Assembly: GCA_961205875.1 (NCBI GenBank)
Contig: OY540813.1
Span: forward strand, 12,433,001 to 12,497,000
Reading direction: 5' to 3'
From: Sialis fuliginosa
Lineage: Eukaryota > Arthropoda > Insecta > Megaloptera > Sialidae
Length of the DNA stretch: 64,000 nucleotides
Positions 1,204 through 54,952 of the stretch are shown here, one piece after another. The translations under genes and the position numbers were made by a program. Positions within the stretch are counted from its first letter, which is position 1, and every line of letters begins with the position of its first letter. The notes beneath the pieces were generated by a model. The model did not search any database, was not told the origin of the DNA, and saw only the letters and a program-made list of their open reading frames with translations.

Positions 1204-1403
1204 TTAAAACCTCATTCGGCTATGATAGGGTTTTCTGTTCTTCACCGGTGTAATAATTTCTAATCTCGCAGATGCCTGCTCCACTCCAGCTTCGTTACGT
1301 AAGACTATGGTGTACATTCCACTGTCTTCAGGTGCAGCAATTGATATTTGGAGCATACGGGTATTGAATTTATGAACTGCTGAAATCCGCGATTCACCTG
1401 AAA
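1204..1403 (-). CDS. Ig gene, last coding exon (second half of Ig8 and C-terminus)
   Basis: Starts in phase 1 after a CAG acceptor and ends at TAA 1204. It encodes the E, F and G strands of the eighth Ig domain (core EDSGMYTIVLRNEAG), followed by a short basic tail ending HSRMRF. The usual second disulphide Cys is replaced: the motif reads MYTIV instead of YxCxA. A second AG lies 6 nt inside the exon (TTTCAG), so two in-frame products differing by Val-Ser are possible. Confidence 0.85.
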
Positions 1404-4400: not shown

Positions 4401-7400
4401 CAAACATTTTCTCCAAAAATAATTCAAACTGATGCATTTTTGCAGTAGTTATCCTGAACAAAAGAAAATTCTACATCTAGAATCACATACACAGACACAC
4501 AGACGCACAGACATACGCACAGCCGCCATGCAGAAATCAACTTTTGGTAGTAGAAGGTAATGCAATCAAAATCTGCTCTTATCTCAGACACGATTTTTTG
4601 ATTTTCCATTACTTTCAGAACATGGAAGTAAAAACGTTTTCTGAGTTTAAAGTTTTTTGTTATAAAAATGTTTAATACCAAATTTACTTAATCAAATACA
4701 ATAGCATTATATGTATACTGTATTACTTAATTAAATAATCGCACGTTATTTGTATCAAAATGGAAATTACATCGAAAAACTGTTAATATAAAAATAATAG
4801 TATTGGTTCATTTTTAAACTTTAACACAAAGATTAAAAACTATATTGGTTAAATACATACAAATATAGCATTTGTAAAAAAATACATAAAGTAATCACAT
4901 GTACCTGTAGGTTTAGACTTCTCTTCTATTTGGAACTCGAACACGATGTCCTGACCGGGAGATACTGAAACCAAACTGGTTGGTCTAGAAATAAACGTGG
5001 CCGGTGAATCTACTGAGGCGAATAATTGTTGCGATGGTGCGGCTCGTAGGGTCACCTGGGGGCCGACGCCACGACCTCGACGCGTTGGCACCACGCGGAC
5101 GAACACAAACTGTGTACGGCGTTCCACACTGCTACATGTGTCTCTGTATACAAAATGTAAAATAATGTTTCATGTTGTTATCAAGCGATTTTTATTTCTT
5201 ATTTTATTTTTTATTCTATATAGAGATGACCGCGAGAGATGGTTAAAATAAAATGTAAAATTTAATAAAATAGAATTAATTTTTTTTTAAATTGCACTTT
5301 GTTTTTGCATAGGTATAAATATATTTACCAGAGTTGCATAAAAATTTTTTATATCAGATTTGATTGAGTTAGGTAAATTACAAATTTTAATAGAATTTTT
5401 TTACAAAACTTTTCAAAAAGCGTTCAATTTTAAGTATTTAGACAATAAAAAGTATCTATGCATTAAATAAAATGAAAAAAATAGTTTATTTACGAAAACC
5501 ATAAATGTTTTTAAAATCTAATTTTGTATAAATATCAACAAAAAATTACTTTATACATAAATTAAAAATAATTAAATACGTTGGTATATTCTTTGTAATA
5601 AACAATGGACTGGCATAGTTGTGCATATGTATTGTCGGTGGCACGTAATCAATGTTAAGGACCTTAGGCAGACTAAATATTCGGGCCCCCCATTTTTTTA
5701 AACGAATAAAAAAAAGTTATCCCAGCAATAAAAAAAAAATCATTTTACAATGCCTCTTTCTCGTCAAGCAATTGTAAGAGCAAAAAAGGAGGTCTTAATC
5801 TTACATAATTTGTTTACTTATTTCTTAAGCTCCCCCCTCCACCCTTTATCACGGGGCCTTAGGAAGTTGCCTAAAGTGCCTACTGTGCAATGGTGTATTT
5901 ACACGGGTCGATTTTCGCCGTGCGGCTAGTCACCTACCAAATCGCCTCACAAGGCCGCACAACAACACCATTTACACGAGTCGATAAAAATCGCATGCGA
6001 TTTGTTCATTTTTTTGAAAATATTGAGCAGAACAAATGTTCTACGTGCGATAAAAATCGCATACTTTGGCGCTTGCGATTTTAGTCATCTGCGGCCTAGC
6101 CGAATTACCATTTACACGGTCGGAAATCGACCCGTGTAAACCCCGTATAACGCATCACTGCATATTGTACAAATAAAATTATTATACAAGCTTAAGTATT
6201 AACTTTACGAATAAGTGTTTCCTGTAAACATCTCTTGACAAATTAAGTATCTAGGTATTAATGTATTAAAGATTTATCGATAAATTTTTAATTTTCTTCA
6301 ATATTTTTCTCAGTTATTAAAAAAGGATAGGTACCTATACAGTATACAGTTATACACTATACATGGTTATTTAATAAAATAGAATAAAAACAAAATTAAA
6401 TTAATAAATGTGATCGTAATCGATAAGAATAATTCAATAATAATTACCGTGCACTAGTAATTCGTCGTCGATCAAGAGGTGACACTCCCAACACCAACTT
6501 CGCTTCGGTGACAGGACTTTGACTTCGGTGTACACATGGATATGAATCGTCGTATTTTAATTTCGTAAACTGTAAACAAGCGCTTGGTGTTCTACTACGC
6601 GAGCCCCAATTAAAGTTACGCAAGGCATCGTGTAATAGAGTGACTTCGTATCGTCTTGGATATTCGTTAGAGGAACGCCATCGTAATCCGTCTCCACCTA
6701 AGTAGTTCAATCCAAATGGACGCATATTTTTCGTTATGAATGCTGTTGATTCATCTGATTTTCGTAATGCAAGAGTTAATGCTGTAATTAAAAAAAAAAC
6801 TTTGTTATTTACATATTACGAAAAATTAAAAATCATTAGTAAGGTTTTTTCATACATCAGTAGAATTTGAATTGTAAGTGATTAAAAGACTTGAATTCAG
6901 TTAATAAATACTCAAACAACGAATAGGGATAGATAATTCAAAATTAATACCTTTTGAAACATCTTCATTTGGCGGAGTCGAATCTCGTGCTTTACCAAAT
7001 TGTCGTGCAACGCTTTCTCGTTGCCTTCGTTCGAGCATTGACCGTATTTCTAATAAATTATCGAAACTGCAAGAATCTGGCCTGGACACTGTCCGAACTC
7101 TTGGACTATCTATATAACAACTACTCATTGCTAACAATGCATCAGAGGTACGATTAGCTGTACGAACGGCATCCTTAACTCGAATATCGGTAACATTTAG
7201 TCCTTGTTTTAATTTTGTAATGTCCCCATTATCTTCGGGAGGTTCACTGAAAGTTCCACGATAATGAGATTTTTTCTTGGGAACGTTTGGCTGGTTTTCT
7301 AACAAATATGAATGATCACGATATTTTGGATGTTCATAATTAGTTGATTTAATGTTGATATTAGTGCTTGAATCTTCCATAATATATTTTTCTTTGTAAT

Positions 7401-10400
7401 AGTCACTTAATCGATTGGGTGTTTTTTGTCTAAAGGCACTTAATTTTTCAACCGTGTATATATCTTTAGTTACTTTGATATCCTTTGTTAGTTTCGATGT
7501 TTCATTTTTATTTAAATAATTATACTTATCAGATCTAATGACATTTTCATTGTTCAGTTTATTACCAACAAGTGTTTTAGAAATTTCCTCTTGATTTTTT
7601 CTTTCCTTTGAATGTTTACTCAGAGAAACATTCAATGTATCAAATTTATCATACCTGCTTGTTATTTTATCATTTTTAGCTGTTACTTTAGTTACATTAA
7701 TAAGATTTTCATTACCTAATGTTTGTTTGGAACCCCCTTTTTCATTTGGTTCCATATCTTTGTTCAATTGGATTTCTTCTGTTTCTTGCGTTATTCGATG
7801 TATTTTAGATATTATTTTTTCATTATCAATATTTTCTTTATCAAGTTTCTCATTTTTAATTTTCTTTGCACTGTCTTTTCCAGTGCCTGTCTCTACTTTA
7901 ACATTATTTTCATTTTTAACCTTTTCTTTTATTAACAATTTATCTTTCTTAAGTAATTCCTTTTTATGTTTTTCTTTTTTCTCAAGTTCATTTTTTTCAA
8001 TTTCCTCTCTTTCTTTCTTTTCCGTCTTAATCTGCGTCTTTTTTAGTTTTTCTTCAGCCGCCTTCGTCGTTTTTTCTTTTTCTAATTTCTCTTTTTTCGC
8101 TATTTCTTCTTTTTCTTTTGTTTCTATCTCACATCGTTCCTTTTCTTTCTTTTCTTTTTCGAGTTGTTCCTTTTTAAGTTTTTCTTCAGCCTCTTTCTTG
8201 GCTTTTTCTTTTTCTAATTTCTCTTTTTTCGCTATCTCTTCTTTTTCTTTTGTTTCTTTTTCTAATTGTTCCTTTTCTTTTTTGAGTTGTTCCTTTTGAA
8301 GATTTTCTTCAGCCTCTTTCTTGGCTTTTTCTTTTTCTAATTTCTCTTTTTTCGCTATCTCTTCTTTTTCTTTTGTTTCTTTTTGTAATCGTTCCTTTTC
8401 TTTCTTTTCTTTTTCGAGTTGTTCCTTTTGAAGTTTTTCTTCAGCCTCTTTCTTGGCTTTTTCTTTTTCTAATTTCTCTTTTTTCGCTATCTCTTCTTTT
8501 TCTTTTGTTTCTTTTTGTAATCGTTCCTTTTCTTTCTTTTCTTTATCGAGTTGTTCCTTTTGAAGTTTTTCTTCAGCCTCTTTCTTGGCTTTTTCTTTTT
8601 CTTTTTCTAATTTCTCTTTTTTCGCTATCTCTTCTTTTTCTTTTGTTTCTTTTTCAAGTCGTTCCTTTTCATTCTTTTCTTTTTCGAGTTGTTCCTTTTT
8701 AAGTTTTTCTTCAGCTTCCTTCTTGGTTTTTTCTTTTTCTAATTTCTCTTTTTTCGCTATCTCTTCTTTTTCTTTTGTTTCTTTTTCTAGTCGTTCCTTT
8801 TCTTTCTTTTCTTTTTCGAGTTGTTCCTTTTGAAGTTTTTCTTCAGCCTCTTTCTTGGCTTTTTCTTTTTCTAATTTCTCTTTTTTCGCTATATCTTCTT
8901 TTTCTTTTGTTTCTTTTTCAAGTCGTTCCTTTTCATTCTTTTCTTTTTCGAGTTGTTCCTTTTGAAGTTTTTCTTCAGCCTCTTTCTTGGCTTTTTCTTT
9001 TTCTAATTTCTCTTTTTTCGCTATCTCTTCTTTTTCTTTTGTTTCTTTTTCTAGTCGTTCCTTTTCTTTCTTTTCTTTATCGAGTTGTTCCTTTTGAAGT
9101 TTTTCTTCAGCCTCTTTCTTGGCTTTTTCTTTTTCTTTTTCTAATTTCTCTTTTTTCGCTATCTCTTCTTTTTCTTTTGTTTCTTTTTCAAGTCGTTCCT
9201 TTTCTTTCTTTTCTTTTTCGAGTTGTTCCTTTTTAAGTTTTTCGTCAGCCTCTTTCTTGGTTTTTTCTTTTTCTTTTTCTAATTTATCTTTTTTCGCTAT
9301 CTCTTCTTTTTCTTTTGTTTCTTTTTCTAGTCGTTCCTTTTCTTTCTTTTCTTTTTCGAGTTGTTCCTTTTTAAGTTTTTCTTCAGCCTCTTTCTTGGCT
9401 TTTTCTTTTTCTTTTTCTAATTTATCTTTTTTCACTTTTTCTTCTTTTTCTTTTGTTTCTTTTTCTAATCGTTCCTTTTCTTTCTTTTCTTTTACGAGTT
9501 GTTCCTTTTGAAGTTTTTCATCAGCCTCTTTCTTGGCTTTTTCTTTTTCTAATTGCTCTTTTTTCGCAATCTCTTCTTTTTCTTTTGTTTCTTTTTGTAA
9601 TCGTTCCTTTTCTTTCTTTCCTTTATCGAGTTGTTCCTTTAGAAGTTTTTCTTCAGCCTCTTTCTTGGTTTTTTCTTTTTCTTTTTCTAATTTCTCTTTC
9701 GTCGCTATCTCTTCTTTTTCGTTTGTTTCTTTTTCTAGTCGTTCCTTTTCTTTCTTTTCTTCATCAAGTTGTTCCTTTTTAAGTTTTTCTTCAGCCTCTT
9801 TCTTGGCTTTTTCTTTTTCTAATTTATCTTTTTTCGCTATCTCTTCTTTTTCTTTTGTTTCTTTTTCAAGTCGTTCCTTTTCATTCTTTTCTTTTTCGAG
9901 TTGTTCCTTTTTAAGTTTTTCTTCAGCCTCTTTCTTGGCTTTTTCTTTTTCTAATTCCTCTTTTTTCGCTATCTCTTTTTCATTTGTTTCTTTCTCAAGT
10001 CGTTCCTTTTCTTTCTTTTCTTTTTCTAACCGTTCCTTTTCTTTCTTTCTATTTTCGAGTTGTTCCTTTTGAAGTTTTTCTTCTGCCTCTTTCTTGGCTT
10101 TTTCTTTTTCTAATTTCTCTTTTTTGACTATCTCTTCTTTTTCGAGTAGTTCCTTTTCTTTCATTTCTTTATCGAATTGTTCCTTTTTAAGTTTTTCTTC
10201 AGCCTCTTTCTTGGCTTTTTCTTTTTCTAATTTATCTTTTTTCGCTATCTCTTCCTTTTCTTTTGTTTCTCTCTCAAGTCTTTCCTTTTCTTTTTCGAAT
10301 TGTTCCTTTTGAAGTTTTTCTTCAGCCTCTTTCTTAACTATTTGTTTTTCTAATTTCTCTTTTGTGGCTATCTCTTCTTTTTCTTTTTTTTCTTTATCGA

Positions 10401-13400
10401 ATTGTTCCTTTTGAAGTTTTTCTTCAGCCTCTTCCTTGGCTTTTTCTTTTTCTAATTTATCTTTTTTGGCTATTTCTTCTTTTTCTTTTGTTTCTTTCTC
10501 AACTCGTTCCTTTTCTTTTTCGAGTTGTTCCTTTTTAAGTTTTTCTTCAGCCTCTTTCTTGGTTTTTTCTTTTTCTAATTTATCTTTTTTCGATTTCTCT
10601 TTTTTTTCTAGTCGTTCTTTTTCTTTCTTTTCCTTTTCAAGTTGTTCCATTTTAAGTTTTTCTTCAACCTCTTTCTTGGCTATTTCATTTTCTATTTTCT
10701 CTTTTTTGGCAATCTCGTCTTTTTCTTTTGTGTCTTTTTCGAGTTGTTCCTTTTTAAGTTTTTCTTCAGCGTCTTCAATGGCTTTTTCTTTTTCTAATTT
10801 TTCTTTTTTCGCTATCTCCACCTTTTCTTTCAATTCTTTATCAAGTTGTTCCTTTTTACGTTTTCCGTCAGATTCTTTTTTGGTTTTTTCATTTTCCAAT
10901 GTTTCTTTCTCCTCTTTCTCTTTCGTTTCTTTTTCCTGTCGTTCCTTGACTTGCTTTTCATTTTCAAGTTTTTCTTGAGTCTTGACTATTTCCATTTCAT
11001 TTACTAGTTGTGAAACAACAGCGACGTCAGCGGCTTTTCCAGTTAGAGTTTGTTGTTCTAGTTCCACAGATATTTTCGCAGTGGCGTGCTCAATCTTTTC
11101 TTTAACGTCTTGCATTTCTTTAGCCAGCTCAGCTACTAATTCTACATCAGCGTGCTTTGCAACTACTTCGGGCAGTTTCATTTCTTCAGAAACTTTGGTG
11201 GTGGCACGTTCGACTTTCTCTTTAACTACATCCATTACCTCGGCTAACTCTGCAACCAAAGCAATATTGGCCGATTTTCCAGAAGTTATCAAAAGTTTCT
11301 GCTCCTTAGATAATTTTGCTGAAGCATGTTCTAATTTCTCCTTAACAGCTTGCATTTCCTTTGCCAGTTCAGAAACTGATGCTACTTCTTTTGTTTTTCC
11401 TTCTGATATTAATACAGCCTTGTCTTCGGCTATTTTGACAGACGCTTGTTCCATCTTTTCTTTGACTATTTCCATTTCATTTACTAGTTGTGAAACAACA
11501 GCGACGTCAACGGCTTTTCCAGTTAGAGTTTGTTGTTCTAGTTCCACAGATATTTTCGCAGTGGCGTGCTCAATCTTTTCTTTAACGTCTTGCATTTCTT
11601 TAGCCAGCTCAGCTACTAATTCTACATCAGCGTGCTTTGCAACTACTTCGGGCAGTTTCATTTCTACAGAAACTTTGGTGGTGGCACGTTCGACTTTCTC
11701 TTTAACTACATCCATTTCCTCTGCTAACTCTGCAACCAAAGCAATATCGGCCGATTTTCCAGAAGTTATTAAAAGTTTCTGCTCCTTAGATAATTTTGCT
11801 GAAGCATGTTCTACTTTCTCCTTAACAGCTTGCATTTCCTTTGCCAGTTCAGAAACTGATGCTACTTCTTCTGTTTTTCCTTCTGATATTAATACAGCCT
11901 TGTCTTCGGCTATTTTGACAGACGCTTGTTCCATCTTTTCTTTGACTATTTCCATTTCATTTACTAGTTGTGAAACAACAGCGACGTCAGCGGCTTTTCC
12001 AGTTAGAGTTTGTTGTTCTAGTTCCACAGATATTTTCGCAGTGGCGTGCTCAATCTTTTCTTTAACGTCTTGCATTTCTTTAGCCAGCTCAGCTACTAAT
12101 TCTACATCAGCGTGCTTTGCAACTACTTCGGGCAGTTTCATTTCTTCAGAATCTTTGGCGGTGGCACGTTCGACTTTCTCTTTAACTACATCCATTTCCT
12201 CTGCTAACTCTGCAACCAAAGCAATATCGGCCGATTTTCCAGAAGTTATTAAAAGTTTCTGCTCCTTAGATAATTTTGCTGAAGCATGTTCTACTTTCTC
12301 CTTAACAGCTTGCATTTCCTTTGCCAGTTCAGAAACTGATGCAACTTCTTCTGTTTTTCCTTCTGATATTAATACAGCCTTGTCTTCGGCTATTTTTACA
12401 GACGCTTGTTCCACCTTTTCTTTGACTATTTCCATTTCATTTACAAGTTGTGAAACAACAGCGATGTCAGCGGATTTTCCAGTTAGAATTTGTTGTTCGA
12501 GTTCCACAGATATTTTCGCAGTGACGTGCTCAATCTTTTCTTTAACGTCTTGCATTTCTTTAGCCAGCTCAGCTACTAATTCTACATCAGCGTGCTTTGC
12601 AACTACTTCGGGCAGTTTCATTTCTTCAGAAACTTTGGTGGTGGCACGTTCGACTTTCTCTTTAACTACATCCATTTCCTCTGCTAACTCTGCAACCAAA
12701 GCAATATCGGCCGATTTTCCAGAAGTTATTAAAAGTTTCTGCTCCTTAGATAATTTTGCTGAAGCATGTTCTACTTTCTCCTTAACAGCTTGCATTTCCT
12801 TTGCCAGTTCAGAAACTGATGCAACTTCTTCTGTTTTTCCTTCTGATATTAATACAGCCTTGTCTTCGGCTATTTTTACAGACGCTTGTTCCATCTTTTC
12901 TTTGACTATTTCCATTTCATTTACTAGTTGTGAAACAACAGCGACGTCAGCGACTTTTCCAGTTAGAGTTTGTTGTTCTAGTTCCACAGATATTTTCGCA
13001 GTGGCGTGCTCAATCTTTTCTTTAACGTCTTGCATTTCTTTAGCCAGCTCAGATACTAATTCTACATCAGCGTGCTTTGCAACTACTTCGGGCAGTTTCA
13101 TTTCTTCAGAAACTTTGGCGGTGGCACGTTCGACTTTCTCTTTAACTACAACCATTTCCTCTGCTAACTCTGCAACCAAAGCAATATCGGCCGATTTTCC
13201 AGAAGTTATTAAAAGTTTCTGCTCCTTAGATAATTTTGCTGAAGCATGTTCTACTTTCTCCTTAACAGCTTGCATTTCCTTTGCCAGTTCAGAAACTGAT
13301 GCTACTTCTTCTGTTTTTCCTTCTGATATTAATACAGCCTTGTCTTCGGCTATTTTTACAGACGCTTGTTCCATCTTTTCTTTGACTATTTCCATTTCAT

Positions 13401-16400
13401 TTACTAGTTGTGAAACAACAGCGACGTCAGCGGCTTTTCCAGTTAGAGTTTGTTGTTCTAGTTCCAAAGATATTTTCGCAGTGGCGTGGTCAATCTTTTC
13501 TTTAACGTCTTGCATTTCTTTAGCCAGCTCAGATACTAATTCTACATCAGCGTGCTTTGCAACTACTTCGGGCAGTTTCATTTCTTCAGAAACTTTGGCG
13601 GTGGCACGTTCGACTTTCTCTTTAACTACATCCATTTCCTCGGCTAACTCTGCAACCAAAGCAATATTGGCCGATTTTCCAGAAGTTATCAAAAGTTTCT
13701 GCTCCTTAGATAATTTTGCTGAAGCATGTTCTACTTTCTCCTTAACAGCTTGCATTTCCTTTGCCAGTTCAGAAACTGATGCTACTTCTTTTGTTTTTCC
13801 TTCTGATATTAATACAGCCTTGTCTTCGGCTATTTTGACAGACGCTTGTTCCATCTTTTCTTTGACTATTTCCATTTCATTTACTAGTTGTGAAACAACA
13901 GCGACGTCAACGGCTTTTCCAGTTAGAGTTTGTTGTTCTAGTTCCACAGATATTTTCGCAGTGGCGTGCTCAATCTTTTCTTTAACGTCTTGCATTTCTT
14001 TAGCCAGCTCAGCTACTAATTCTACATCAGCGTGCTTTGCAACTACTTCGGGCAGTTTCATTTCTACAGAAACTTTGGTGGTGGCACGTTCGACTTTCTC
14101 TTTAACTACATCCATTTCCTCTGCTAACTCTGCAACCAAAGCAATATCGGCCGATTTTCCAGAAGTTATTAAAAGTTTCTGCTCCTTAGATAATTTTGCT
14201 GAAGCATGTTCTACTTTCTCCTTAACAGCTTGCATTTCCTTTGCCAGTTCAGAAACTGATGCTACTTCTTCTGTTTTTCCTTCTGATATTAATACAGCCT
14301 TGTCTTCGGCTATTTTTACAGACGCTTGTTCCATCTTTTCTTTGACTATTTCCATTTCATTTACTAGTTGTGAAACAACAGCGACGTCAGCGACTTTTCC
14401 AGTTAGAGTTTGTTGTTCTAGTTCCACAGATATTTTCGCAGTGGCGTGCTCAATCTTTTCTTTAACGTCTTGCATTTCTTTAGCCAGCTCAGATACTAAT
14501 TCTACATCAGCGTGCTTTGCAACTACTTCGGGCAGTTTCATTTCTTCAGAAACTTTGGCGGTGGCACGTTCGACTTTCTCTTTAACTACAACCATTTCCT
14601 CTGCTAACTCTGCAACCAAAGCAATATCGGCCGATTTTCCAGAAGTTATAAAAAGTTTTTGCTCCTTAGATAATTTTGCTGAAGCATGTTCTACTTTCTC
14701 CTTAACAGCTTGCATTTCCTTTGCCAGTTCAGAAACTGATGCTACTTCTTCTGTTTTTCCTTCTGATAATAATACAGCCTTGTCTTCGGCTATTTTTACA
14801 GACGCTTGTTCCATCTTTTCTTTGACTATTTCCATTTCATTTACTAGTTGTGAAACAACAGCGACGTCAGCGGCTTTTCCAGTTAGAGTTTGTTGTTCTA
14901 GTTCCACAGATATTTTTGCAGTGGCGTGGTCAATCTTTTCTTTAACGTCTTGCATTTCTTTAGCCAGCTCAGATACTAATTCTACATCAGCGTGCTTTGC
15001 AACTACTTCGGGCAGTTTCATTTCTTCAGAAACTTTGGCGGTGGCACGTTCGACTTTCTCTTTAACTACATCCATTTCCTCGGCTAACTCTGCAACCAAA
15101 GCAATATCGGCCGATTTTCCAGAAGTTATCAAAAGTTTCTGCTCCTTAGATAATTTTGCTGAAGCATGTTCTACTTTCTCCTTAACAGCTTGCATTTCCT
15201 TTGCCAGTTCAGAAACTGATACTACTTCTTCTGTTTTTCCTTCTGATATTAATACAGCCGTGTCTTCGGCTATTTTTACAGACGCTTGTTCCATCTTTTC
15301 TTTGACTATTTCCATTTCATTTACAAGTTGTGAAACAACAGCGACGTCAGCGGCTTTTCCAGTTAGAGTTTGTTGTTCTAGTTCCACAGATATTTTCGCA
15401 GTGGCGTGCTCAATCTTTTCTTTAACGTCTTGCATTTCTTCTGCCAGCTCAGCTACTAATTCTACATCAGCGTGCTTTGCAACTACTTCGGGCAGTTTCA
15501 TTTCTACAGAAACTTTGGTGGTGGCACGTTCGACTTTCTCTTTAACTACATCCATTTCCTCTGCTAACTCTGCAACCAAAGCAATATCGGCCGATTTTCC
15601 AGAAGTTATTAAAAGTTTCTGTTCCTTAGATAATTTTGCTGAAGCATGTTCTACTTTCTCCTTAACAGCTTGCATTTCCTTTGCCAGTTCAGAAACTGAT
15701 GCAACTTCTTCTGTTTTTCCTTCTGATATTAATACAGCCTTGTCTTCGGCTATTTTTACAGACGCTTGTTCCACCTTTTCTTTGACTATTTCCATTTCAT
15801 TTACTAGTTGTGAAACAACAGCGACGTCAGCGGCTTTTCCAGTTAGAGTTTGTTGTTCTAGTTCCACAGATATTTTCGCAGTGGCGTGCTCAATCTTTTC
15901 TTTAACGTCTTGCATTTCTTTAGCCAGCTCAGATACTAATTCTACATCAGCGTGCTTTGCAACTACTTCGGGCAGTTTCATTTCTTCAGAAACTTTGGCG
16001 GTGGCACGTTCGACTTTCTCTTTAACTACATCCATTTCCTCTGCTAACTCTGCAACCAAAGCAATATCGGCCGATTTTCCAGAAGTTATTAAAAGTTTCT
16101 GCTCCTTAGATAATTTTGCTGAAGCATGTTCTACTTTCTCCTTAACAGCTTGCATTTCCTTTGCCAGTTCAGAAACTGATGCAACTTCTTCTGTTTTTCC
16201 TTCTGATATTAATACAGCCTTGTCTTCGGCTATTTTTACAGACGCTTGTTCCATCTTTTCTTTGACTATTTCCATTTCATTTACAAGTTGTGAAACAACA
16301 GCGACGTCAGCGGCTTTTCCAGTTAGAGTTTGTTGTTCTAGTTCCACAGATATTTTCGCAGTGGCGTGCTCAATCTTTTCTTTAACGTCTTGCATTTCTT

Positions 16401-19400
16401 TAGCCAGCTCAGCTACTAATTCTACATCAGCGTGCTTTGCAACTACTTCGGGCAGTTTCATTTCTTCAGAAACTTTGGCGGTAGCACGTTCGACTTTCTC
16501 TTTAACTACATCCATTTCCTCGGCTAACTCTGCAACCAATGCAATATCGGCCGATTTTCCAGAAGTTATTAAAAGTTTCTGCTCCTTAGATAATTTTGCT
16601 GAAGCATGTTCTACTTTCTCCTTAACAGCTTGCATTTCCTTTGCCAGTTCAGAAACTGATGCTACTTCTTCTGTTTTTCCTTCTGATATTAATACAGCCT
16701 TGTCTTCGGCTATTTTTACAGATGCTTGTTCCACCTTTTCTTTGACTATTTCCATTTCATTTACAAGTTGTGAAACAACAGCGACGTCAACGGCTTTTCC
16801 AGTTAGAGTTTGTTGTTCTAGTTCCACAGATATTTTCGCAGTGGCGTGCTCAATCTTTTCTTTAACGTCTTGCATTTCTTTAGCCAGCTCAGCTACTAAT
16901 TCTACATCAGCGTGCTTTGCAACTACTTCGGGCAGTTTCATTTCTTCAGAAACTTTGGCGGTGGCACGTTCGACTTTCTCTTTAACTACATCCATTTCCT
17001 CTGCTAACTCTGCAACCAAAGCAATATCGGCCGATTTTCCAGAAGTTATTAAAAGTTTCTGCTCCTTAGATAATTTTGCTGAAGCATGTTCTACTTTCTC
17101 CTTAACAGCTTGCATTTCCTTTGCCAGTTCAGAAACTGATGCAACTTCTTCTGTTTTTCCTTCTGATATTAATACAGCCTTGTCTTCGGCTATTTTTACA
17201 GACGCTTGTTCCACCTTTTCTTTGACTATTTCCATTTCATTTACAAGTTGTGAAACAACAGCGACGTCAGCGGTTTTTCCAGTTAGAATTTGTTGTTCGA
17301 GTTCCACAGATATTTTCGCAGTGACGTGCTCAATCTTTTCTTTAACGTCTTGCATTTCTTTAGCCAGCTCAGCTACTAATTCTACATCAGCGTGCTTTGC
17401 AACTACTTCGGGCAGTTTCATTTCTTTAGAAACTTTGGTGGTGGCACGTTCGACTTTCTCTTTAACTACATCCATTTCCTCAGCTAACTCTGCAACCAAA
17501 GCAATATCGGCCGATTTTCCAGAAGTTATTAAAAGTTTCTGCTCCTTAGATAATTTTGCTGAAGCATGTTCTACTTTCTCCTTAACAGCTTGCATTTCCT
17601 TTGCCAGTTCAGAAACTGATGCTACTTCTTCTGTTTTTCCTTCTGATATTAATACAGCCTTGTCTTCGGCTATTTTTACAGATGCTTGTTCCACCTTTTC
17701 TTTGACTATTTCCATTTCATTTACAAGTTGTGAAACAACAGCGACGTCAGCGGCTTTTCCAGTTAGAGTTTGTTGTTCTAGTTCCACAGATATTTTCGCA
17801 GTGGCGTGCTCAATCTTTTCTTTAACGTCTTGCATTTCTTCTGCCAGCTCAGCTACTAATTCTACATCAGCGTGCTTTGCAACTACTTCGGGCAGTTTCA
17901 TTTCTTCAGAAACTTTGGTGGTGGCACGTTCGACTTTCTCTTTAACTACATCCATTTCCTCAGCTAACTCTGCAACCAAAGCAATATCGGCCGATTTTCC
18001 AGAAGTTATTAAAAGTTTCTGCTCCTTAGATAATTTTGCTGAAGCATGTTCTACTTTCTCCTTAACAGCTTGCATTTCCTTTGCCAGTTCAGAAACTGAT
18101 GCTACTTCTTCTGTTTTTCCTTCTGATATTAATACAGCCTTGTCTTCGGCTATTTTTACAGATGCTTGTTCCACCTTTTCTTTGACTATTTCCATTTCAT
18201 TTACAAGTTGTGAAACAACAGCGACGTCAGCGGCTTTTCCAGTTAGAGTTTGTTGTTCTAGTTCCACTGATATTTTCGCAGTGGCGTGCTCAATCTTTTC
18301 TTTAACGTCTTGCATTTCTTTAGCCAGCTCAGCTACTAATTCTACATCAGCGTGCTTTGCAACTACTTCGGGCAGTTTCATTTCTTCAGAAACTTTGGCG
18401 GTGGCACGTTCGACTTTCTCTTTAACTACATCCATTTCCTCTGCTAACTCTGCAACCAAAGCAATATCGGCCGATTTTCCAGAAGTTATAAAAAGTTTCT
18501 GCTCCTTAGATAATTTTGCTGAAGCATGTTCTACTTTCTCCTTAACAGCTTGCATTTCCTTTGCCAGTTCAGAAACTGATGCAACTTCTTCTGTTTTTCC
18601 TTCTGATATTAATACAGCCTTGTCTTCGGCTATTTTTACAGACGCTTGTTCCATCTTTTCTTTGACTATTTCCATTTCATGTACAAGTTGTGAAACAACA
18701 GCGACGTCAGCGGCTTTTCCAGTTAGAGTTTGTTGTTCTAGTTCCACAAATATTTTCGCAGTGGCGTGCTCAATCTTTTCTTTAACGTCTTGCATTTCTT
18801 TAGCCAGCTCAGCTACTAATTCTACATCAGCGTGCTTTGCAACTACTTCGGGCAGTTTCATTTCTTCAGAAACTTTGGCGGTAGCACGTTCGACTTTCTC
18901 TTTAACTACATCCATTTTCTCGGCTAACTCTGCAACCAATGCAATATCGGCCGATTTTCCAGAAGTTATTAAAAGTTTCTGCTCCTTAGATAATTTTGCT
19001 GAAGCATGTTCTACTTTCTCCTTAACAGCTTGCATTTCCTTTGCCAGTTCAGAAACTGATGCTACTTCTTCTGTTTTTCCTTCTGATATTAATACAGCCT
19101 TGTCTTCGGCTATTTTTACAGATGCTTGTTCCACCTTTTCTTTGACTATTTCCATTTCATTTACAAGTTGTGAAACAACAGCGACGTCAACGGCTTTTCC
19201 AGTTAGAGTTTGTTGTTCTAGTTCCACAGATATTTTCGCAGTGGCGTGCTCAATCTTTTCTTTAACGTCTTGCATTTCTTTAGCCAGCTCAGCTACTAAT
19301 TCTACATCAGCGTGCTTTGCAACTACTTCGGGCAGTTTCATTTCTTCAGAAACTTTGGCGGTGGCACGTTCGACTTTCTCTTTAACTACATCCATTTCCT

Positions 19401-22400
19401 CTGCTAACTCTGCAACCAAAGCAATATCGGCCGATTTTCCAGAAGTTATTAAAAGTTTCTGCTCCTTAGATAATTTTGCTGAAGCATGTTCTACTTTCTC
19501 CTTAACAGCTTGCATTTCCTTTGCCAGTTCAGAAACTGATGCAACTTCTTCTGTTTTTCCTTCTGATATTAATACAGCCTTGTCTTCGGCTATTTTTACA
19601 GACGCTTGTTCCATCTTTTCTTTGACTATTTCCATTTCATGTACAAGTTGTGAAACAACAGTGACGTCAGCGGCTTTTCCAGTTAGAGTTTGTTGTTCTA
19701 GTTCCACAGATATTTTCGCAGTGGCGTGCTCAATCTTTTCTTTAACGTCTTGCATTTCTTTAGCCAGCTCAGCTACTAATTCTACATCAGCGTGCTTTGC
19801 AACTACTTCGGGCAGTTTCATTTCTTCAGAAACTTTGGCGGTAGCACGTTCGACTTTCTCTTTAACTACATCCATTTCCTCGGCTAACTCTGCAACCAAT
19901 GCAATATCGGCCGATTTTTCAGAAGTTATTAAAAGTTTCTGCTCCTTAGATAATTTTGCTGAAGCATGTTCTACTTTCTCCTTAACAGCTTGCATTTCCT
20001 TTGCCAGTTCAGAAACTGATGTTACTTCTTCTGTTTTTCCTTCTGATATTAATACAGCCTTGTCTTCGGCTATTTTTACAGACGCTTGTTCCACCTTTTC
20101 TTTGACTATTTCCATTTCATTTACAAGTTGTGAAACAACAGCGACGTCAGCGGCTTTTCCAGTTAGAATTTGTTGTTCGAGTTCCACAGATATTTTCGCA
20201 GTGACGTGCTCAATCTTTTCTTTAACGTCTTGCATTTCTTTAGCCAGCTCAGCTACTAATTCTACATCAGCGTGCTTTGCAACTACTTCGGGCAGTTTCA
20301 TTTCTTCAGAAACTTTGGCGGTGGCACGTTCGACTTTTTCTTTAACTACATCCATTTCCTCTGCTAACTCTGCAACCAAAGCAATATCGGCCGATTTTCC
20401 AGAAGTTATTAAAAGTTTCTGCTCCTTAGATAATTTTGCTGAAGCATGTTCTACTTTCTCCTTAACAGCTTGCATTTCCTTTGCCAGTTCAGAAACTGAT
20501 GCAACTTCTTCTGTTTTTCCTTCTGATATTAATACAGCCTTGTCTTCGGCTATTTTTACAGACGCTTGTTCCACCTTTTCTTTGACTATTTCCATTTCAT
20601 TTACAAGTTGTGAAACAACAGCGACGTCAGCGGCTTTTCCAGTTAGAATTTGTTGTTCGAGTTCCACAGATATTTTCGCAGTGACGTGCTCAATCTTTTC
20701 TTTAACGTCTTGCATTTCTTTAGCCAGCTCAGCTACTAATTCTACATCAGCGTGCTTTGCAACTACTTCGGGCAATTTCATTTCATCAGAAACTTTGGCG
20801 GTGGCACGTTCGACTTTCTCTTTAACTACATCCATTTCCTCTGCTAACTCTGCAACCAAAGCAATATTGGCCGATTTTCCAGAAGTTATTAAAAGTTTCT
20901 GCTCCTTAGATAATTTTGCTGAAGCATGTTCTACTTTCTGCTTAACAGCTTGCATTTCCTTTGCCAGTTCAGAAACTGATGCAACGTCTTCTGTTTTTCC
21001 TACTGATATTAATACAGCCTTGTCTTCGGCTATTTTTACAGACGCTTGTTCCACCTTTTCTTTGACTATTTCCATTTCATTTACAAGTTGTGAAACAACA
21101 GCGACGTCAACGGCTTTTCCAGTTAGAGTTTGTTGTTCTAGTTCTACAGATATTTTCGCAGTGGCGTGCTCAATCTTTTCTTTAACGTCTTGCATTTCTT
21201 TAGCCAGCTTAGCTACTAATTCTACATCAGCGTGCTTTGCAACTACTTCGGGCAGTTTCATTTCTTCAGAAACTTTGGCGGTGGCACGTTCGACTTTCTC
21301 TTTAACTACATCCATTTCCTCTGCTAACTCTGCAACCAAAGCAATATCGGCCGATTTTCCAGAAGTTATTAAAAGTTTCTGCTCCTTAGATAATTTTGCT
21401 GAAGCATGTTCTAATTTCTCCTTAACAGCTTGCATTTCCTTTGCCAGTTCAGAAACTGATGCAACTTCTTCTGTTTTTCCTTCTGATATTAATACAGCCT
21501 TGTCTTCGGCTATTTTTACAGACGCTTGTTCCACCTTTTCTTTGACTATTTCCATTTCATTTACAAGTTGTGAAACAACAGCGACGTCAACGGCTTTTCC
21601 AGTTAGAGTTTGTTGTTCTAGTTCCACAGATATTTTCGCAGTGACGTGCTCAATCTTTTCTTTAACGTCTTGCATTTCTTTAGCCAGCTCAGCTACTAAT
21701 TCTACATCAGCGTGCTTTGCAACTACTTCGGGCAGTTTCATTTCTTCAGAAACTTTGGCGGTGGCACGTTCGACTTTCTCTTTAACTACATCCATTTCCT
21801 CTGCTAACTCTGCAACCAAAGCAATATCGGCCGATTTTCCAGAAGTTGTCAAAAGTTTCTGCTCTTTAGATAATTTTGCTGAAGCATGTTCTACTTTCTC
21901 CTTAACAGCTTGCATTTCCTTTGCCAGTTCAGAAACTGATGCAACTTCTTCTGTTTTTCCTTCTGATATTAATACAGCCTTGTCTTCGGCTATTTTTACA
22001 GATGCTTGTTCCACCTTTTCTTTGACTATTTCCATTTCATTTACAAGCTGTGAAACAACAGCGACGTCAGCGGCTTTTCCAGTTAGAGTTTGTTGTTCTA
22101 GTTCCACAGATATTTTCGCAGTGGCGTGCTCAATCTTTTCTTTAACGTCTTGCATTTCTTTAGCCAGCTCAGCTACTAATTCTACATCAGCGTGCTTTGC
22201 AACTACTTCGGGCAGTTTCATTTCTTCAGAAACTTTGGCGGTGGCACGTTCGACTTTCTCTTTAACTACATCCATTTCCTCTGCTAACTCTGCAACCAAA
22301 GCAATATCGGCCGATTTTCCAGAAGTTATCAAAAGTTTCTGCTCCTTAGATAATTTTGCTGAAGCATGTTCTACTTTCTCCTTAACAGCTTGCATTTCCT

Positions 22401-25400
22401 TTGCCAGTTCAGAAACTGATGCTACTTCTTCTGTTTTTCCTTCTGATATTAATACAGCCTTGTCTTCGGCTATTTTTACAGACGCTTGTTCCACCTTTTC
22501 TTTGACTGTTTCCATTTCATTTACAAGTTGTGAAACAACAGCGACGTCAGCGGCTTTTCCAGTTAGAGTTTGTTGTTCTAGTTCCACAGATATTTTCGCA
22601 GTGGCGTGCTTAATCTTTTCTTTAACGTCTTGCATTTCTCTAGCTAACATAGCGTGCTTTGCAACTTCTTCAGGTAATTTAAGGTCTTCGTTAACTTTGG
22701 TGGTGGCACGTTTGACAACATCCATTTCCTCGGCTAACTCTGCAACTAAAGCAGTATCGGTCGATTTTCCAGAAGTTATCAATAATTTCAGCTCTTTCGA
22801 TGATTTTGCCGATACACATTTCTCTTTTTCTTTGTCTGACGGTTCATTCAGAATTTCCTCTACTTCTTGTCTATTGTCAATACCTTTTTTATTTTTGTCA
22901 ATGTAATTGTTACTTGTTTTTACATTTTCTTTTCTATTTATATCTTGGTATTCTGATACTACTTCTGGCTGTTTAATTTTCTCGTGTATGTTTGAGGATA
23001 TTAGCTCGGATTCGTTACTATTCTTATTTTGAATATTTGAATCCTTTTTGTCATCTACTTTTTCAAAAATTTCATTTATCTGTAATTTCATTTGATCATT
23101 GTATTCTTTTATACCTGATACTTTTTCTAATATTAATAATAAATGTTCTTCTTCTGATTGTATACCAGAAGTTTGTATTTCAAGGTCTTCTACTTTTCTG
23201 TTTAACTCTGTAGCTGCTAAAAGTAACTCTTTTCTAAATATATCTTTCGATGTTTTTGGTTGGAATGTTTGTTGAACAGTGATGTCAAAAATTTGTGCAA
23301 TTAATGTTGAATATTCTGTATTTATTTCGCATAGTTCGTCGATTATAATTTCAATTATTTGTTTGTTAACCGATGTATTTCTGTTAAAATTTGTATGTAG
23401 TATTTCCGAGAAATAAATTAGTACGCTATCCATTCTGTCAAGAATTCTACATATTCCTATCATTATTTTTTCATCGTCAGCAATATCATTTTCATGCTCA
23501 GTATTTGAAATAATTTCTGTTGTATATTCGTTTATATTATAATTTTGTTCATCAATTTCACTTAGTATGAGACCATCAACATTATCAATATTTCCATGCT
23601 CTATATTTTGCCGTTGCTGTTCAATCAATCTTTCCATTTCACCTGTTTCGTCAACAATTACTATTGTCGAATTATCAATTTGTTGTGCAAGTTCTGTATA
23701 CTGTCCTTCTCCAATCTCTACTAGAATATCTTTCTGATTATTGATAAACATCTCATGCGTCAAAGTAACCAAATCATTAAAGTCATATCGGATATCAAGA
23801 ATTGTATCAATTAGTTTTTGTTTTGGTTCATCTATAATTTCTTTTTGGTCAATATCATCGGTATTGTTAAATCTCAAAACATCGCACATCAAATCTAGTA
23901 CGCTTATTATATTGTCACCCGTTTGATAAATGATTTGAATGCCGGTTTTTTGCACCAAATCATTTTGTTGATCTAGAATGCATTCTTTAATTGCACTCAT
24001 ATTATGTTGCAAATCTAGTGAAATACCAAATAAAACTTCCGTAGCTGTTTGATTGTTATCACCATGCCGTTTATTTTGTTTTAAACATAGAAAATATTTT
24101 CTTAGATCTTGTATGGATTTAATTGTACTACTGAGAATATCTAGACATTTTTGAATCGATGGGGAATATTCTTTTAAAGATTTTAAAAACATTTCTCTTT
24201 CCACATAACACAATCGTTCTTGGATTTCGGTTAAATTATTTGTTAATAAGACAACAAGGAACTGGATATTTTTTTGTAAAATTTGTAAATCATCAACTAA
24301 GTCTTGATCTTGTTTTTCGTCATCTGCACTACTTGTAGCTGCACTTCGAGAATTGTCAAGTGATTCTTGTGATATTTCTTTTTTACCACTAACCTTCATT
24401 GCTAACGGTTGGCGGTCGATTTCTAAGCTTTTGGCGCTCATGAATGTTTCAGTGTCGGCATCAATTGATTTACGTGAAAGTTCTATTGATTTTCTATTTA
24501 TTTTTTCATCAGAAACACTGTAATACATATCCGGACTTTGAATATTTGAATGTCCGCTTCTCCTACTTTTATTGTCACTCAATCGAGAGTTTAGCGCGTC
24601 ATCATATTCACTTTTTCTAAATTCATCTGAAAGCGCTCTAGAAGCTCGTGGAGATTGAAATGATTCTGTCAGTGCGCTACGTCTATCTTCTTCAGAGAAT
24701 GTTCGTGAGAGTCTAGAAGAATGAAGGGTGTCTTCAAGAACTGATATGTCTTCAATATCTGCTTCTGTGCGTTGGTCTTCTTCCATTACCGTGAAATATT
24801 CGGGAATCACATCGATTACTACTCCTTCCATACAAATGTTACTAGCTGTAGATGTTTCTTTTACAATTCGAAGTGGTGGTAGTTCTACAACGTTATGTTC
24901 TAAAAAATAAAAATAATATTTAGTTTAAATATTTATTGCATTGTTTATTAAAATAAATACCTGATATATTTTCAGATAACTGATCTGCATACATTTCAAC
25001 AATTTGCAAAGCTTGTTCATTTGTTAAATCTGGAGTATCGTAATACGAAACGGATATTTCCTTTCCATCGAATGAATATGAAATTTCATGGGGCAACGAT
25101 GGTTCTTCGTCAGGAGTTTTATATGACTCTTCTTCATTAATTGTTGACAATGATAAACGACGAGTTGGTCTAGGTAGGGGAGGTAACGGAGTAGCTGCTT
25201 CAACACCGTGTACGGCAGCCGAACTACTAGATGCACCCATACAATTTCTTGCTTCACAAGTATAAATCCCTAAACAGCATGTGCCATCCTAAAAATTTCA
25301 AATATAACACCATTGAAATATCACTTAAAACTATTATTATTTACCTGTCCAGACATTATTTTGTGAATATCTCCTGGATTTAACTCAACGCCATCTTTAA

Positions 25401-28400
25401 ACCACTTGAGTGTTGGCTGAGGAACACCAATCACTTTGCATTCCAAATTTACTATTCCGTCATCTGACAATATAGCCTTAAGATTTTCTAAAAATTTCGG
25501 TTTCTTGAAATGTTTTGGAATTATTAGTTTCAAAAAACACGATGTTTCTGCTCTACCGAATTCGTTGGTTGCTATACATTTCCATTCTGCTTGATCAGTA
25601 ATTTCTAATTTTAATATATCTAAATGAAAAGCTCCTATGCTTTCTGTCTTTTCCGTGTATTTATTAGAATCTGTTATTACTTGATCATCTTTGTACCAAG
25701 CTACTTTTGGTAATGGAGGAGTATGAACTGAAATATGTACTTGGTTAGTATAACATTAATTAAGATATTTATGAAAAAGACGTGTATTAACATCATATTT
25801 AATATATATACACTATAACACTACCGTCAAAAAGTTTGGAAGCAGGTATATTTTTATGTGTATCAAAACTTTATTGAGTTCTTTATTTTATTTGTTTTTG
25901 CGAATTTTCCAAAGAAAAATATAGTTATTTAAATTTTGAATTATTTGTAGGAAAACAAATTTATATTCGTTCGGAATATGAATTTTTGAAACTGTCTAAA
26001 TTACTCTAAATGATTTTCTAAATTGCAATTTTGATTTTAAAATTTTGTATTTAAAAATAAAGATTTAGTTTGAATTTAGACATGAATCAATTTATTATTG
26101 TTAATATTATTACGTATGAAAAAACACATACAAAATACATAATTATATAATATAGGACAAAAAATACCTTGAACAGTAAATCTAAAGGTTGTGTTGATTG
26201 AAGTTTCGCAACTCGTTAGTTTCTTTATAAATTTAGGTGGCTGTCGCATAGCAGTCAATGCTAAATTATCTTCAGCACTGAGTTGTTGTCTAATATCTTC
26301 TACAGTTAACTGTGCCTCGCTACTAGCCTCTCCCATACAGTTGCTTGCTACACAGACGTAGGCTCCTAGCGAACTAACGCCAGTCAATTGATAAATATCA
26401 CCAGCACGTAGTTCTGAACCATCTTTAAACCATCTTAATGCAGGTGTTGGATATCCTACTACTTTACATTCAAATGATACTAATCCATCTTCGGTTAATA
26501 CTGCTTTTAACTTATCAACGAAATATGGTTTGCGGTAATTTTTCGGCGCTAGTAACAATTAGTGTTTTTTTATTATAAAAAATAAATCACATTTTTTAAA
26601 TAGAACAATTTTAGTTACCCCATATATTGACTTCAGTCGAAGTAACGGCAACACTTCCATCAAGAGCAATGGCGACACATTTCCACGTTCCTTTATCGGC
26701 TTCCGTTGCTACAGTAACCTCCAACATGTATCCGCCCGTTCCATCAGAGTGTTGGCGATAACGACCGCCCTCTGTTATATCTTCACCTTGCGGGGTGTGC
26801 CACTTGATTACTTTTGGTGCCGGTGGTGCTGCCACTATAAACAACGAAATCTTAAGTAAAATAAACTAATTTCCCAGTATGGTATGACTATCAATACTTG
26901 AATACTGATTATTAATTCTTTCCATATAGTTTATGTTAATAATTTATTTTAACAGTAAGGGCCTAAAATATCACATAATACGCGTCTGGAATATTTTAAA
27001 AAAATTATCACTATTATATTCAAGGTTTCAAAGTATTTCAAAGTATCGATTGCCACCAAAACAAATTAGATCTGATAAATATTTTTCAAGAAATTCCGAA
27101 ATCTACTTTTTTGCAGTCTTTTTGTTTTAACAAAAAAAGGACGGGACTGAATTTGATGAAATTTCTTTCAGATCAAATTCACGTTAAGGCGCTTCGATTG
27201 GCATTCCAACGAAGTAAATAGCAATTTTTATTTGCGAGATTTCGTGCCGATAAAAATTAACTCGCACGTACATACGTGCATACATACACTGAAAATACTG
27301 TAAATATACTGTTGTATGTTGAAATTTTTTATTTCGAATTTCGGACCTATTACAATAACTTTTCAATACTGGAAAAACTGATTACCTATCAGTGTTTTTA
27401 GAACGTATGTACTTGTCCACAGAGTCAGCCCGATAAACTTTTTGTATTGACAAATATAAGTCATATTTGGTGTGAGACGTTTCTTTATTGTGACATAAAA
27501 ATAACTATTATGTCTGGCACTGCTAAAAAGGCTCAAGTTTTGCTCCGGGTCGAACAATTTTCCTAACCAGCCATATTTTTGTAGTTATTATTATATTTAT
27601 ACAAAAAGATTTTCACAAATATAAACCAGTATAATTTTAATTTAATTAAAGTACAATTCTACATAATTAATATATGAATTAATAAAATTAAAAATCAATT
27701 TAACTTACACTGGCATGACAAGACAAACGAATCCCCAACTTTAACTCGTTCACTTCGTAGTTGCTTAGTGAAAATCGGCGGTTGTCCGGACGGTAACACG
27801 CTGTATATCGCATCTGGCTTTCCACCATCTACATGAACACGTGAAGACGAGTACGCTTTGCCCATGCAGTTACTTGCTTCGCAAGTGTATGTTCCTAAAG
27901 AGACTTCGTCCTTTGACGTTGGCGATAACGCGAATGTGTCACCTGCTTTAATTTCTACTCCGTCTTTGAACCAACGCAATGTCGGTGTAGGTACACCGAC
28001 TACTTTGCATTGTAGAGAAACTGTTCCTTCTTCAGTCAGGATTGCTTCCAGCGCTTCGTAAAATACTGGTTTCTTGTAGGATTTGGGAACTAAATTAAAG
28101 TAAATATTTTTGGTGAAGTATTTATACCATTTAAAAATATTGTATTCATAAAATGATATAATTTTATCGACATTTTTGACAAAATATACATATATAAAAT
28201 CTACAAAAGTATAACTATAAACAAATAAACATGGTATTTGTATTTATTCAAAAATTAATAATTTGTGAAATGTTTGATTAGTATAATCATATTCATTAGA
28301 AACATAATTAAAGTGTACAGTACATTATAATTTAACTATAGTATTTATAACTGATATCTATCCATAAGTTAAAAATAAAATAAAACAGTTTAATTAATAT

Positions 28401-43902: not shown

Positions 43903-44033
43903 CTGAAATCATAAAATTATAATTATTAGCATGAATGAAAAGAATGAATAACTAAAAAATATATTTTCTAAATTTCTTTAAATTAGGGGTTTAACCCGTA
44001 ACAAATATATAAAAATATAACTGTTTTACTTAC

Positions 44034-46251: not shown

Positions 46252-46356
46252 CTGGAAAAAAATATATTTTATTATTTATAAATAAAGTTTCAAATACAAT
46301 TACGTTCTGTCTACGCAGAGGTACTTATATTATTTTCTTTAAAATAATTATGTATA

Positions 46357-54060: not shown

Positions 54061-54952
54061 CTTAAAATAACCCCTGCCTGGTATCTCTATGTCTATGGTA
54101 TTTTTTAACACTGACAATGTCTAGGTTAAAATGTTTGCTATGTTGATACTTATTATTACTTTTGTACCTACTAAAAATACATTCCATAAAACTATTAATT
54201 TTCTAAAATTAGTATGTAGTTTTTTATTACTATTTTAAGATTTGTTTACTATCAAATATATATTTAGTTGAGAAAATGTTAAAACAACAATGTGTTTTTG
54301 TTTATAACAACAAAAATTTGCTATGAAATATTAGGTATGTATATTATTTCTTTTTAACAAAGATATAGGTACTGTTTTTATTTAGATGTCTAATAATCAA
54401 AGCACATTCACAGCAGTTATTTATAAATGAAACTGATTTAGTTACAATGACCAAGTCACTATTTTAAAATTTCGTAAGCTGCAATCATAAAGTTACTAAA
54501 GGATACAACAAAAATAAATTTTTATGTACTCATATTTCTGTGGGTTTGTCTTATTTATTACATTATAGGTATTAATAATAATTTGATCTATAAAAATTAA
54601 TTCAATTAAACCATTTAATTCAAAATCGAAGAAATTGATTGATTATCAAAATATTTTACAAATTTATTTTTGGTTTAATTTAAAAGTTTATTAATGTTTA
54701 CTAAACATTATTACAGTACAATAAACTTTATGAAATTTTAATTGGACCTTTCATTAATCAAAGAGACGAATTTCACTTTTCGTTAAAAGTATGTTTATTA
54801 TATAGATTTTTGCACGCTCATTTCAAATATGTCGAATAAAATCAAATCCGACCACCTGTTCAAAAGTTTTTGAAAAAACTGGCACTGAAGTTAGTATAAA
54901 AATAAATCTAAAACGGTTAAGTATGCACCTATTTGTTAAAAAAAATACTCAC

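Follow-up and report, generated by a model that had tools for sequence, protein, structure and literature searches.

Higher-order repeats in coding sequence (NBPF) and super-repeats in muscle proteins (nebulin) are already known. Nebulin lies along its filament and is built of modules of about 35 amino acids (aa). These are grouped into super-repeats of seven modules, with 22 to 29 super-repeats per protein, alternative splicing and copy-number variation, and each super-repeat spans 38.5 nm of the thin filament, as described in PMC7109182. In a higher-order repeat as set out in PMC9584774, monomers diverge by about 20-40% and copies of the n-mer by less than 5%; for NBPF20 the same source gives a divergence of ~1.6% on average between copies and ~18% between monomers. 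Here we describe an array of 480-bp units, each encoding four different 40-residue modules, within one predicted giant exon of the alderfly Sialis fuliginosa. The stretch analysed, hereafter the window, comprises 64,000 nucleotides (assembly GCA_961205875.1, contig OY540813.1, positions 12,433,001 to 12,497,000 of the forward strand), and all positions below are those of the window.

Like the NBPF/Olduvai triplets on human chromosome 1, the alderfly array consists of diverged monomers that keep a fixed order and are copied together as a higher-order block. However, each NBPF monomer is about 1.6 kb long and has two exons with introns, whereas the alderfly array lies in a single exon, has a 480-bp unit and is predicted to encode helical bundles. 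Nebulin is likewise a giant muscle protein with modules grouped into super-repeats, but its seven-module units are spread over many exons and bind actin, while the alderfly units have four modules, share one exon and have no known ligand. An array of such build looks unusual among coding higher-order repeats. What appears to be new is the agreement between the copied block and a predicted folding domain, the presence of all copies in one exon, and the apparent absence of an array from the open reading frame (ORF) of P0002, a relative of the flanking N-terminal part. We found no earlier description of a 160- or 40-residue array of this kind in the open-licence literature, where, judged by title, the genome note is the only genomic work on S. 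fuliginosa.

The array is encoded on the minus strand (22803 to 10981) and corresponds to residues 677-4617 of an ORF at 6901..24831 that has 5,976 aa when counted from its first ATG. The 480-nt higher-order protein repeat claimed in an earlier note on this DNA is real: at 10982-22644 Tandem Repeats Finder detected 24.3 copies of a repeat of period 480, matching at 98% and with 0% indels. Chance is no possible explanation for the array. There are 23 complete units (11284..22323, aa 837-4516), each of exactly 160 aa and made of four modules of 40 aa, and the order of the modules was identical in all 23 and in both edge units, as had been claimed. At 22324..22803 the array starts with a 10-residue module fragment followed by the first unit, which is diverged and 150 aa long (aa 687-836). 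The module profile recognised four modules in this unit, two of them shortened; of the 10 residues by which it falls short of 160, a gap of 4 is visible in the profile alignment and the remaining 6 are obtained by difference. The last unit (10981..11283, aa 4517-4617) contains two modules and a fragment according to the same profile, is cut within the third module and joins a tail rich in Glu and Lys (E/K-rich) directly. The earlier description of 24 units at 10981..22500 holds for the exact length of the 23 full units, but the span is 10981-22803 and the edge units are irregular. Similarly, the absence of indels is true of the full units but not of the shortened first one, and the estimate of about 96 modules has to be replaced by 98, a figure that includes two shortened modules, with two fragments in addition. 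A genome-wide search with an array unit gave at least 25 matches from 53 candidates, all 53 of which were scored, and all matches lay inside the giant exon.

Divergence within the array falls at two levels. Pairs of full units differed at 0-16 of 480 bases (0-3.3%; mean 9.87; n = 253 pairs), and the later full units were 96-99% identical to the first full unit. When the consensus sequences of the four modules were compared (n = 6 pairs), 68-75 of 120 bases were identical and 45-52 differed (37.5-43.3%), and 16-22 of 40 residues were the same. The modules therefore diverge at or slightly above the range quoted for monomers of higher-order repeats, the full units stay at 0-3.3%, and the copies stand in tandem with a constant monomer order in 23 of 23 full units and in both edge units. 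This bears out the claim that the 160-aa unit, and not the 40-aa module, is now being copied. The likeness to alpha-satellite architecture drawn in the earlier note also stands, but it leaves aside why there should be four modules, which is likely to reflect a four-helix bundle.

Between modules, the proportion of synonymous differences (pS) was 0.67-0.87, so that synonymous sites are near saturation, and the proportion of nonsynonymous differences (pN) was 0.26-0.35. Over the six module pairs pN/pS was 0.39 in the coding frame, while the antisense frame of the same phase gave 0.48 and the four remaining frames 0.99-1.44; taken alone, this test separates the coding frame little from the same-phase antisense frame. 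The near-saturated pS of the modules, their low pN and the divergence of about 2% between units indicate that the four modules are old and were kept by purifying selection, and that the four-module block was copied or homogenised recently. Like the array and its module order, these two time-scales are read from the DNA sequence itself.

The full units are also mosaic. All four combinations of variants were found at 65 of 300 informative site pairs, and the 11 pairs of units with at most 4 differences were spaced 2-10 units apart. Units 7 and 12 were identical, and single differences separated unit 17 from 20 and unit 18 from 23. Divergence between units was correlated with how far apart they lie in the array (Mantel r of 0.227; 21 of 5000 permutations attained it), but immediate neighbours were no closer than expected (743 of 5000 permutations). 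Reshuffled unit variants of this type are, on the evidence of these site patterns, what unequal crossing-over and gene conversion would leave. Where the earlier note had proposed strong selection on length or very recent expansion, recent homogenisation agrees with the ~2% divergence and the mosaic units, whereas selection on length is supported only moderately.

The array lies, as had been claimed without naming the strand, within a single predicted coding exon, which is on the minus strand (6951..24899). This giant exon has 17,949 nt, is divisible by 3 and stop-free, and has phase 1 at both ends. Its splice sites were called from sequence, not from transcripts: the acceptor at 24899 reads TTTTTTAG/AACATAAC and the donor at 6951 reads TTCAAAAG/GTATTA (the slash marks the boundary). 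Spliced to both neighbours, the giant exon gave an open reading, and the neighbours joined to each other also kept the frame; the exon can be skipped in frame because of phase 1 at both ends. The exon directly upstream (24961..25288, minus strand; its end is the donor and its start that of the open frame) resembles, by eye, the last portion of an immunoglobulin (Ig) domain with a linker, and its frame taken alone had no Pfam match. The exon directly downstream (6447..6781, minus strand; its start is the acceptor and its end that of the open frame) had no Pfam match either. On the same strand, I-set Ig domains scored above the Pfam cut-off in five of six upstream frames (25.3-29.3 kb) and in three of five downstream frames (1.2-3.9 kb). 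The splice joins cover the direct neighbours of the giant exon only, and the other Ig frames are assigned to the gene by strand and spacing. Taken at the level of sequence, the open exon with its splice phases and its Ig context marks the giant-exon gene as an Ig-domain gene.

Besides the array, the exon has an acidic non-repeated N-terminal part (22804..24831, aa 1-676 from the first ATG), the E/K-rich tail (7942..10980) and a non-repeated C-terminal part (6951..7941), all on the minus strand. The frame stays open for 16 residues past the giant exon (6901-6950, minus strand), and retention of the intron would lead to a stop and an alternative C-terminus. On the plus strand, an antisense ORF of 3,974 aa spans the array (10982-22906), because the 480-bp unit is stop-free in one antisense frame. 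We rejected this ORF as a coding frame; its ends approximately coincide with the array edges. The minus frame is preferred because it reaches spliced exons, Ig domains and a relative.

The E/K-rich tail comprises 1,013 aa (residues 4618-5630). It is 73% charged and proline-free. Its repeat is unrelated to the array modules, so that two unrelated arrays occur in one exon. The spacing of the tail motif varied from 34 to 53 aa over 20 intervals, 12 of which were 44 or 46, with many indels. There were 699 pairs of opposite charges at i+3/i+4, against 534 +/- 16 in shuffled sequences, and the spacings of Leu, Ile, Val, Met and Phe were mostly 10, 5, 6 and 13 rather than 3 and 4. The tail thus shows the high charge, the opposite charges at i+3/i+4 and the lack of a hydrophobic heptad that are typical of a single alpha-helix (SAH), and it resembles one by these measures. 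As an SAH it would span about 150 nm (0.15 nm per residue). SAH domains stretch at low, nearly constant force, and that of myosin-10 covers residues 813-909 (PMC4183817), compared with about 1,013 aa in the alderfly; an E/K-rich, proline-free composition and an excess of opposite charges at i+3/i+4 are what the tail has in common with SAH domains.

Structure prediction had been suggested as a check. AlphaFold2 predicted, with moderate confidence, one helix per 40-aa module with a turn every 40 residues, and four successive modules packed as a four-helix bundle. The "four" of the unit probably corresponds to one folding domain of this predicted kind. Talin has 13 bundles that differ among themselves, and it is not known to carry Ig domains. 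Helical bundles in series unfold singly; those of the talin rod named R4-R6 and R9-R12 do this under forces of 10-25 pN, and PMC4941051 portrays talin as a force buffer. The alderfly protein would share with the talin rod a series of helical bundles in a load-bearing cytoplasmic protein, a functional analogy in which the alderfly bundles are predicted; it differs in that the later full units match the first at 96-99% and the array is flanked by Ig domains. With the intracellular Ig proteins of the titin family (sallimus, zormin, projectin and obscurin) it shares I-set Ig domains flanking a long insertion, and one alderfly Ig frame has titin as its closest relative of solved structure. No Pfam family reached its cut-off in this long insertion. 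We take the protein as intracellular because a candidate first exon (54949-55461) starts, by eye, without a signal peptide.

Our preferred explanation, which we judge somewhat better than an even guess, is that about 24 helical bundles and a charged helix form an extensible spring between Ig domains, carried by a skippable giant exon. An ancestral 40-residue helix would have been duplicated to give four diverged helices, which jointly make approximately one four-helix bundle. The four-helix block would then have been amplified and recently homogenised through unequal crossing-over, gene conversion or both. The resulting protein would have about 24 near-identical bundles in series, followed by the ~1,013-residue charged helix, with Ig domains on either side. 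By analogy with the talin rod, the bundles could unfold and refold singly under load and so buffer force, and the charged helix, by analogy with other SAH domains, could be a soft spacer working at near-constant force. Inclusion or skipping of the giant exon would give long and short forms. A function as a spring, a site in muscle or the cytoskeleton and alternative splicing may all apply. That this is a lineage-specific spring, in which one four-helix domain was copied about 24 times, the contour length can change by recombination and the whole is removable by splicing, is a tentative suggestion to which we give less than even weight.

The unfolded chain of one unit would measure about 58 nm (160 residues at 0.36 nm). 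If this tentative suggestion is true, this is the length added or removed with each unit gained or lost, the protein is a natural near-homopolymer of bundles, and changes in copy number may adjust how far muscle or the cytoskeleton can extend, from one individual or species to another. Copy-number variation in the array may directly change how long a load-bearing protein is. A natural series of near-identical predicted bundles is also suited to force spectroscopy. Since the DNA repeat level of 480 bp matches the predicted folding domain, it may be asked whether domain boundaries set the multiple of the module that is copied.

Several results weigh against this explanation. When the AlphaFold2 construct was shifted by 80 residues, the predicted bundles moved with the construct ends and had no fixed register, and the confidence score (pLDDT) spread across the five models of each construct, from 45.9 to 69.2 and from 53.5 to 64.3. 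In both models the blocks with the lowest scores lie where the first module meets the second, at the single proline, and we guess that the domain boundary is there. A plain Foldseek search found nothing at E <= 0.001, and relaxing the limit to E <= 10 brought 514 matches. Talin was weakly matched by the first model, and it was not among the 50 matches listed for the shifted model; the PDB matches to four-helix bundles can, at the Z level seen, reflect a common arrangement. The comparison of dN/dS among units, also suggested earlier, could be made but is no proof of selection. The ratio of nonsynonymous to synonymous changes (N/S) among the full units was 0.40 for pooled pairs and 0.52 for distinct variants, while stop-bearing control frames gave 0.44-1.19 and the open antisense frame 0.66. 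Recent selection is unreadable from the unit N/S because the values of the stop-bearing frames overlap those of the coding frame, and we dropped this line of evidence. Finally, no protein relatives of P0001 region 1-1200 were found among 1,010 candidates scored, and none of three array units among 7,999 candidates; as the homologue searches found no array-bearing relative, the function of the array cannot be inferred from conservation.

Of the other explanations, the one that survives best, though we consider it unlikely, is that the array arose mostly as a by-product of recombination. It would be a coding satellite of drifting copy number, tolerated because the fold does no harm and the frame is preserved, in an exon that is perhaps mostly skipped. 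Recent homogenisation and mosaic units agree with such a history, as do the two unrelated arrays within one exon, the possibility of skipping it in frame and a unit N/S little different from that of control frames. The single relative of the N-terminal 676 aa found among 8,000 candidates, P0002, fits as well. It aligned locally over aa 1-365 (E 2.9e-55, 142 of 369 columns identical), and a gapped MAFFT alignment extends to about residue 596 with little identity. No array module was found in its 527-aa ORF (best domain -0.9 bits), which stops approximately where the array begins in the window protein. P0002 lends a lineage-specific array weak support, as it comes from a contig of 2,032 nt, probably a Logan contig to judge from its source label 'lgn', with an uncertain gene model.

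Against a mere by-product stand the constraint between modules in the coding frame and the kinds of change seen among the units. The 56 distinct substitution variants of the 23 full units created no stop, where 2.5-3.1 were expected (P 0.04-0.07), and no indel accompanied them. In the E/K-rich tail repeat, 19 adjacent pairs gave 16 indels per 166 substitutions, and at this rate 5.4 indels would be expected for the 56 variants (P of none ~0.005). The contrast is rough, since the tail is slippage-prone low-complexity sequence counted by adjacent pairs and the array was counted by distinct variants; counting the array by adjacent pairs would predict 19.9 indels, and we quote 5.4 because the 22 adjacent pairs share variants. 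Selection on unit length thus has moderate support from the sequence and no more. An indel-free array beside an indel-rich charged helix in one exon provides a built-in, imperfect control for such selection.

We regard as quite improbable that the protein is a ruler or scaffold attached at regular intervals to a filament, in the way that nebulin is to actin, with each unit a docking site and copy number setting length. The fixed module order and the exact unit length would suit such a ruler, and the seven-module super-repeats of nebulin, at 38.5 nm each on the thin filament, are a precedent (PMC7109182). However, near-identity arises from recent copying, so the exact length need not mirror a filament period, and the predicted bundles do not follow a filament in the manner of nebulin. 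No partner-binding motif is known in the unit, for which Pfam alone was searched, and two array units had no match to the nebulin repeat at E <= 1.

A long coiled coil or oligomerising rod, in which the modules pair between chains and not as bundles within one chain, seems to us still harder to accept. Each module does fit a heptad-like spacing of hydrophobic residues (the best fit among seven registers, with no shuffle control), and the AlphaFold2 models are moderate in confidence and describe a single chain only. Glycine-containing breaks (xGK) nevertheless open three of the four modules, a proline precedes the fourth, and turns are predicted every 40 residues. A Fourier scan of the array gave peaks at divisors of 40 or 20 residues and little power at 3.5 or 3.6. 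An assembly artefact is very improbable: assemblers can collapse or expand 11.8 kb of near-identical repeats, and units 7 and 12 are identical, but most units have distinct variant combinations, the frame is open across 5,976 codons, the window contains no N, and a gross artefact is made unlikely by the 65x HiFi reads and quality value (QV) of 63.7 reported for ikSiaFuli1.1, very probably the assembly used here (PMC11549539).

Searches with two array units gave little else. In Pfam, 16 families matched at E <= 1, all under their curated cut-offs. The best was SPATA1_C (E 4e-05; 24.0 bits, with the cut-off at 27.8), which we discarded with the others as helical-repeat noise. A sequence search of PDB returned PilO alone (E 0.038). 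No support was found for a derivation of the module from the N-terminal part, the C-terminal part or the tail (hmmsearch below the inclusion threshold).

The Ig frames around the giant exon are all on the minus strand. Upstream, the open frame at 25324..25755 had two I-set matches (E 4.1e-22), and single I-set domains were found at 26079..26558 (E 3.7e-13), 26614..26865 (E 8e-06) and 27698..28087 (E 9.7e-14), the last with titin as its best PDB chain; a partial I-set domain lay at 29050..29250 (E 4.9e-09). Downstream, there were a partial domain at 3691..3930 (E 2.8e-09), the first part of a domain at 2385..2684 (E 4.3e-08) and the last part of one at 1207..1428 (E 1.7e-06).

As to which Ig gene this is, zormin of the fly combines four spectrin repeats with several Ig domains and lies beside sls and CG15822, which encodes SEC14 plus spectrin, according to PMC12198301. 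Spectrin had no match in the N-terminal, array, tail and C-terminal pieces of the exon at E <= 1, or in 15 other minus-strand pieces of the window at E <= 0.1. Pfam scans of 21 pieces of the window (19 on the minus strand and two of the Per1 gene described below) showed no FN3 domain or titin-like kinase. An Ig profile built from five pieces of the giant-exon gene, which also missed two I-set frames of that gene, detected no other Ig domain within 130 kb to the left or 110 kb to the right. A dense Ig cluster was present on C1 at 3.77-3.90 Mb, among the matches listed; we guess it to be sls, an unconfirmed assignment with no CRAL_TRIO_2 match near it. None of the seven CRAL_TRIO_2 matches was on C5, the scaffold of this locus and very probably chromosome 5, and the locus gave no sign of the fly order CG15822-zormin-sls. 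An identity with zormin is neither supported nor refuted, and the PDB matches of the Ig domains do not name the gene.

Further features were noted in the window, in which no tRNAs and no RNA families at the gathering score were found. On the minus strand, a proline-rich 11-aa repeat (33 bp, 8.6 copies, 89% matches) lies at 45412-45695 in an open frame at 43983-46268, which is perhaps another exon of the giant-exon gene. An open frame of 823 aa (41437-43908, minus strand) ends with a hydrophobic segment followed by a short polar tail, and possibly encodes the C-terminus of a membrane-anchored isoform. On the opposite strand, two open frames at 59463-61003 match Pfam Per1 and mark an adjacent gene of the Per1/PGAP3 family.

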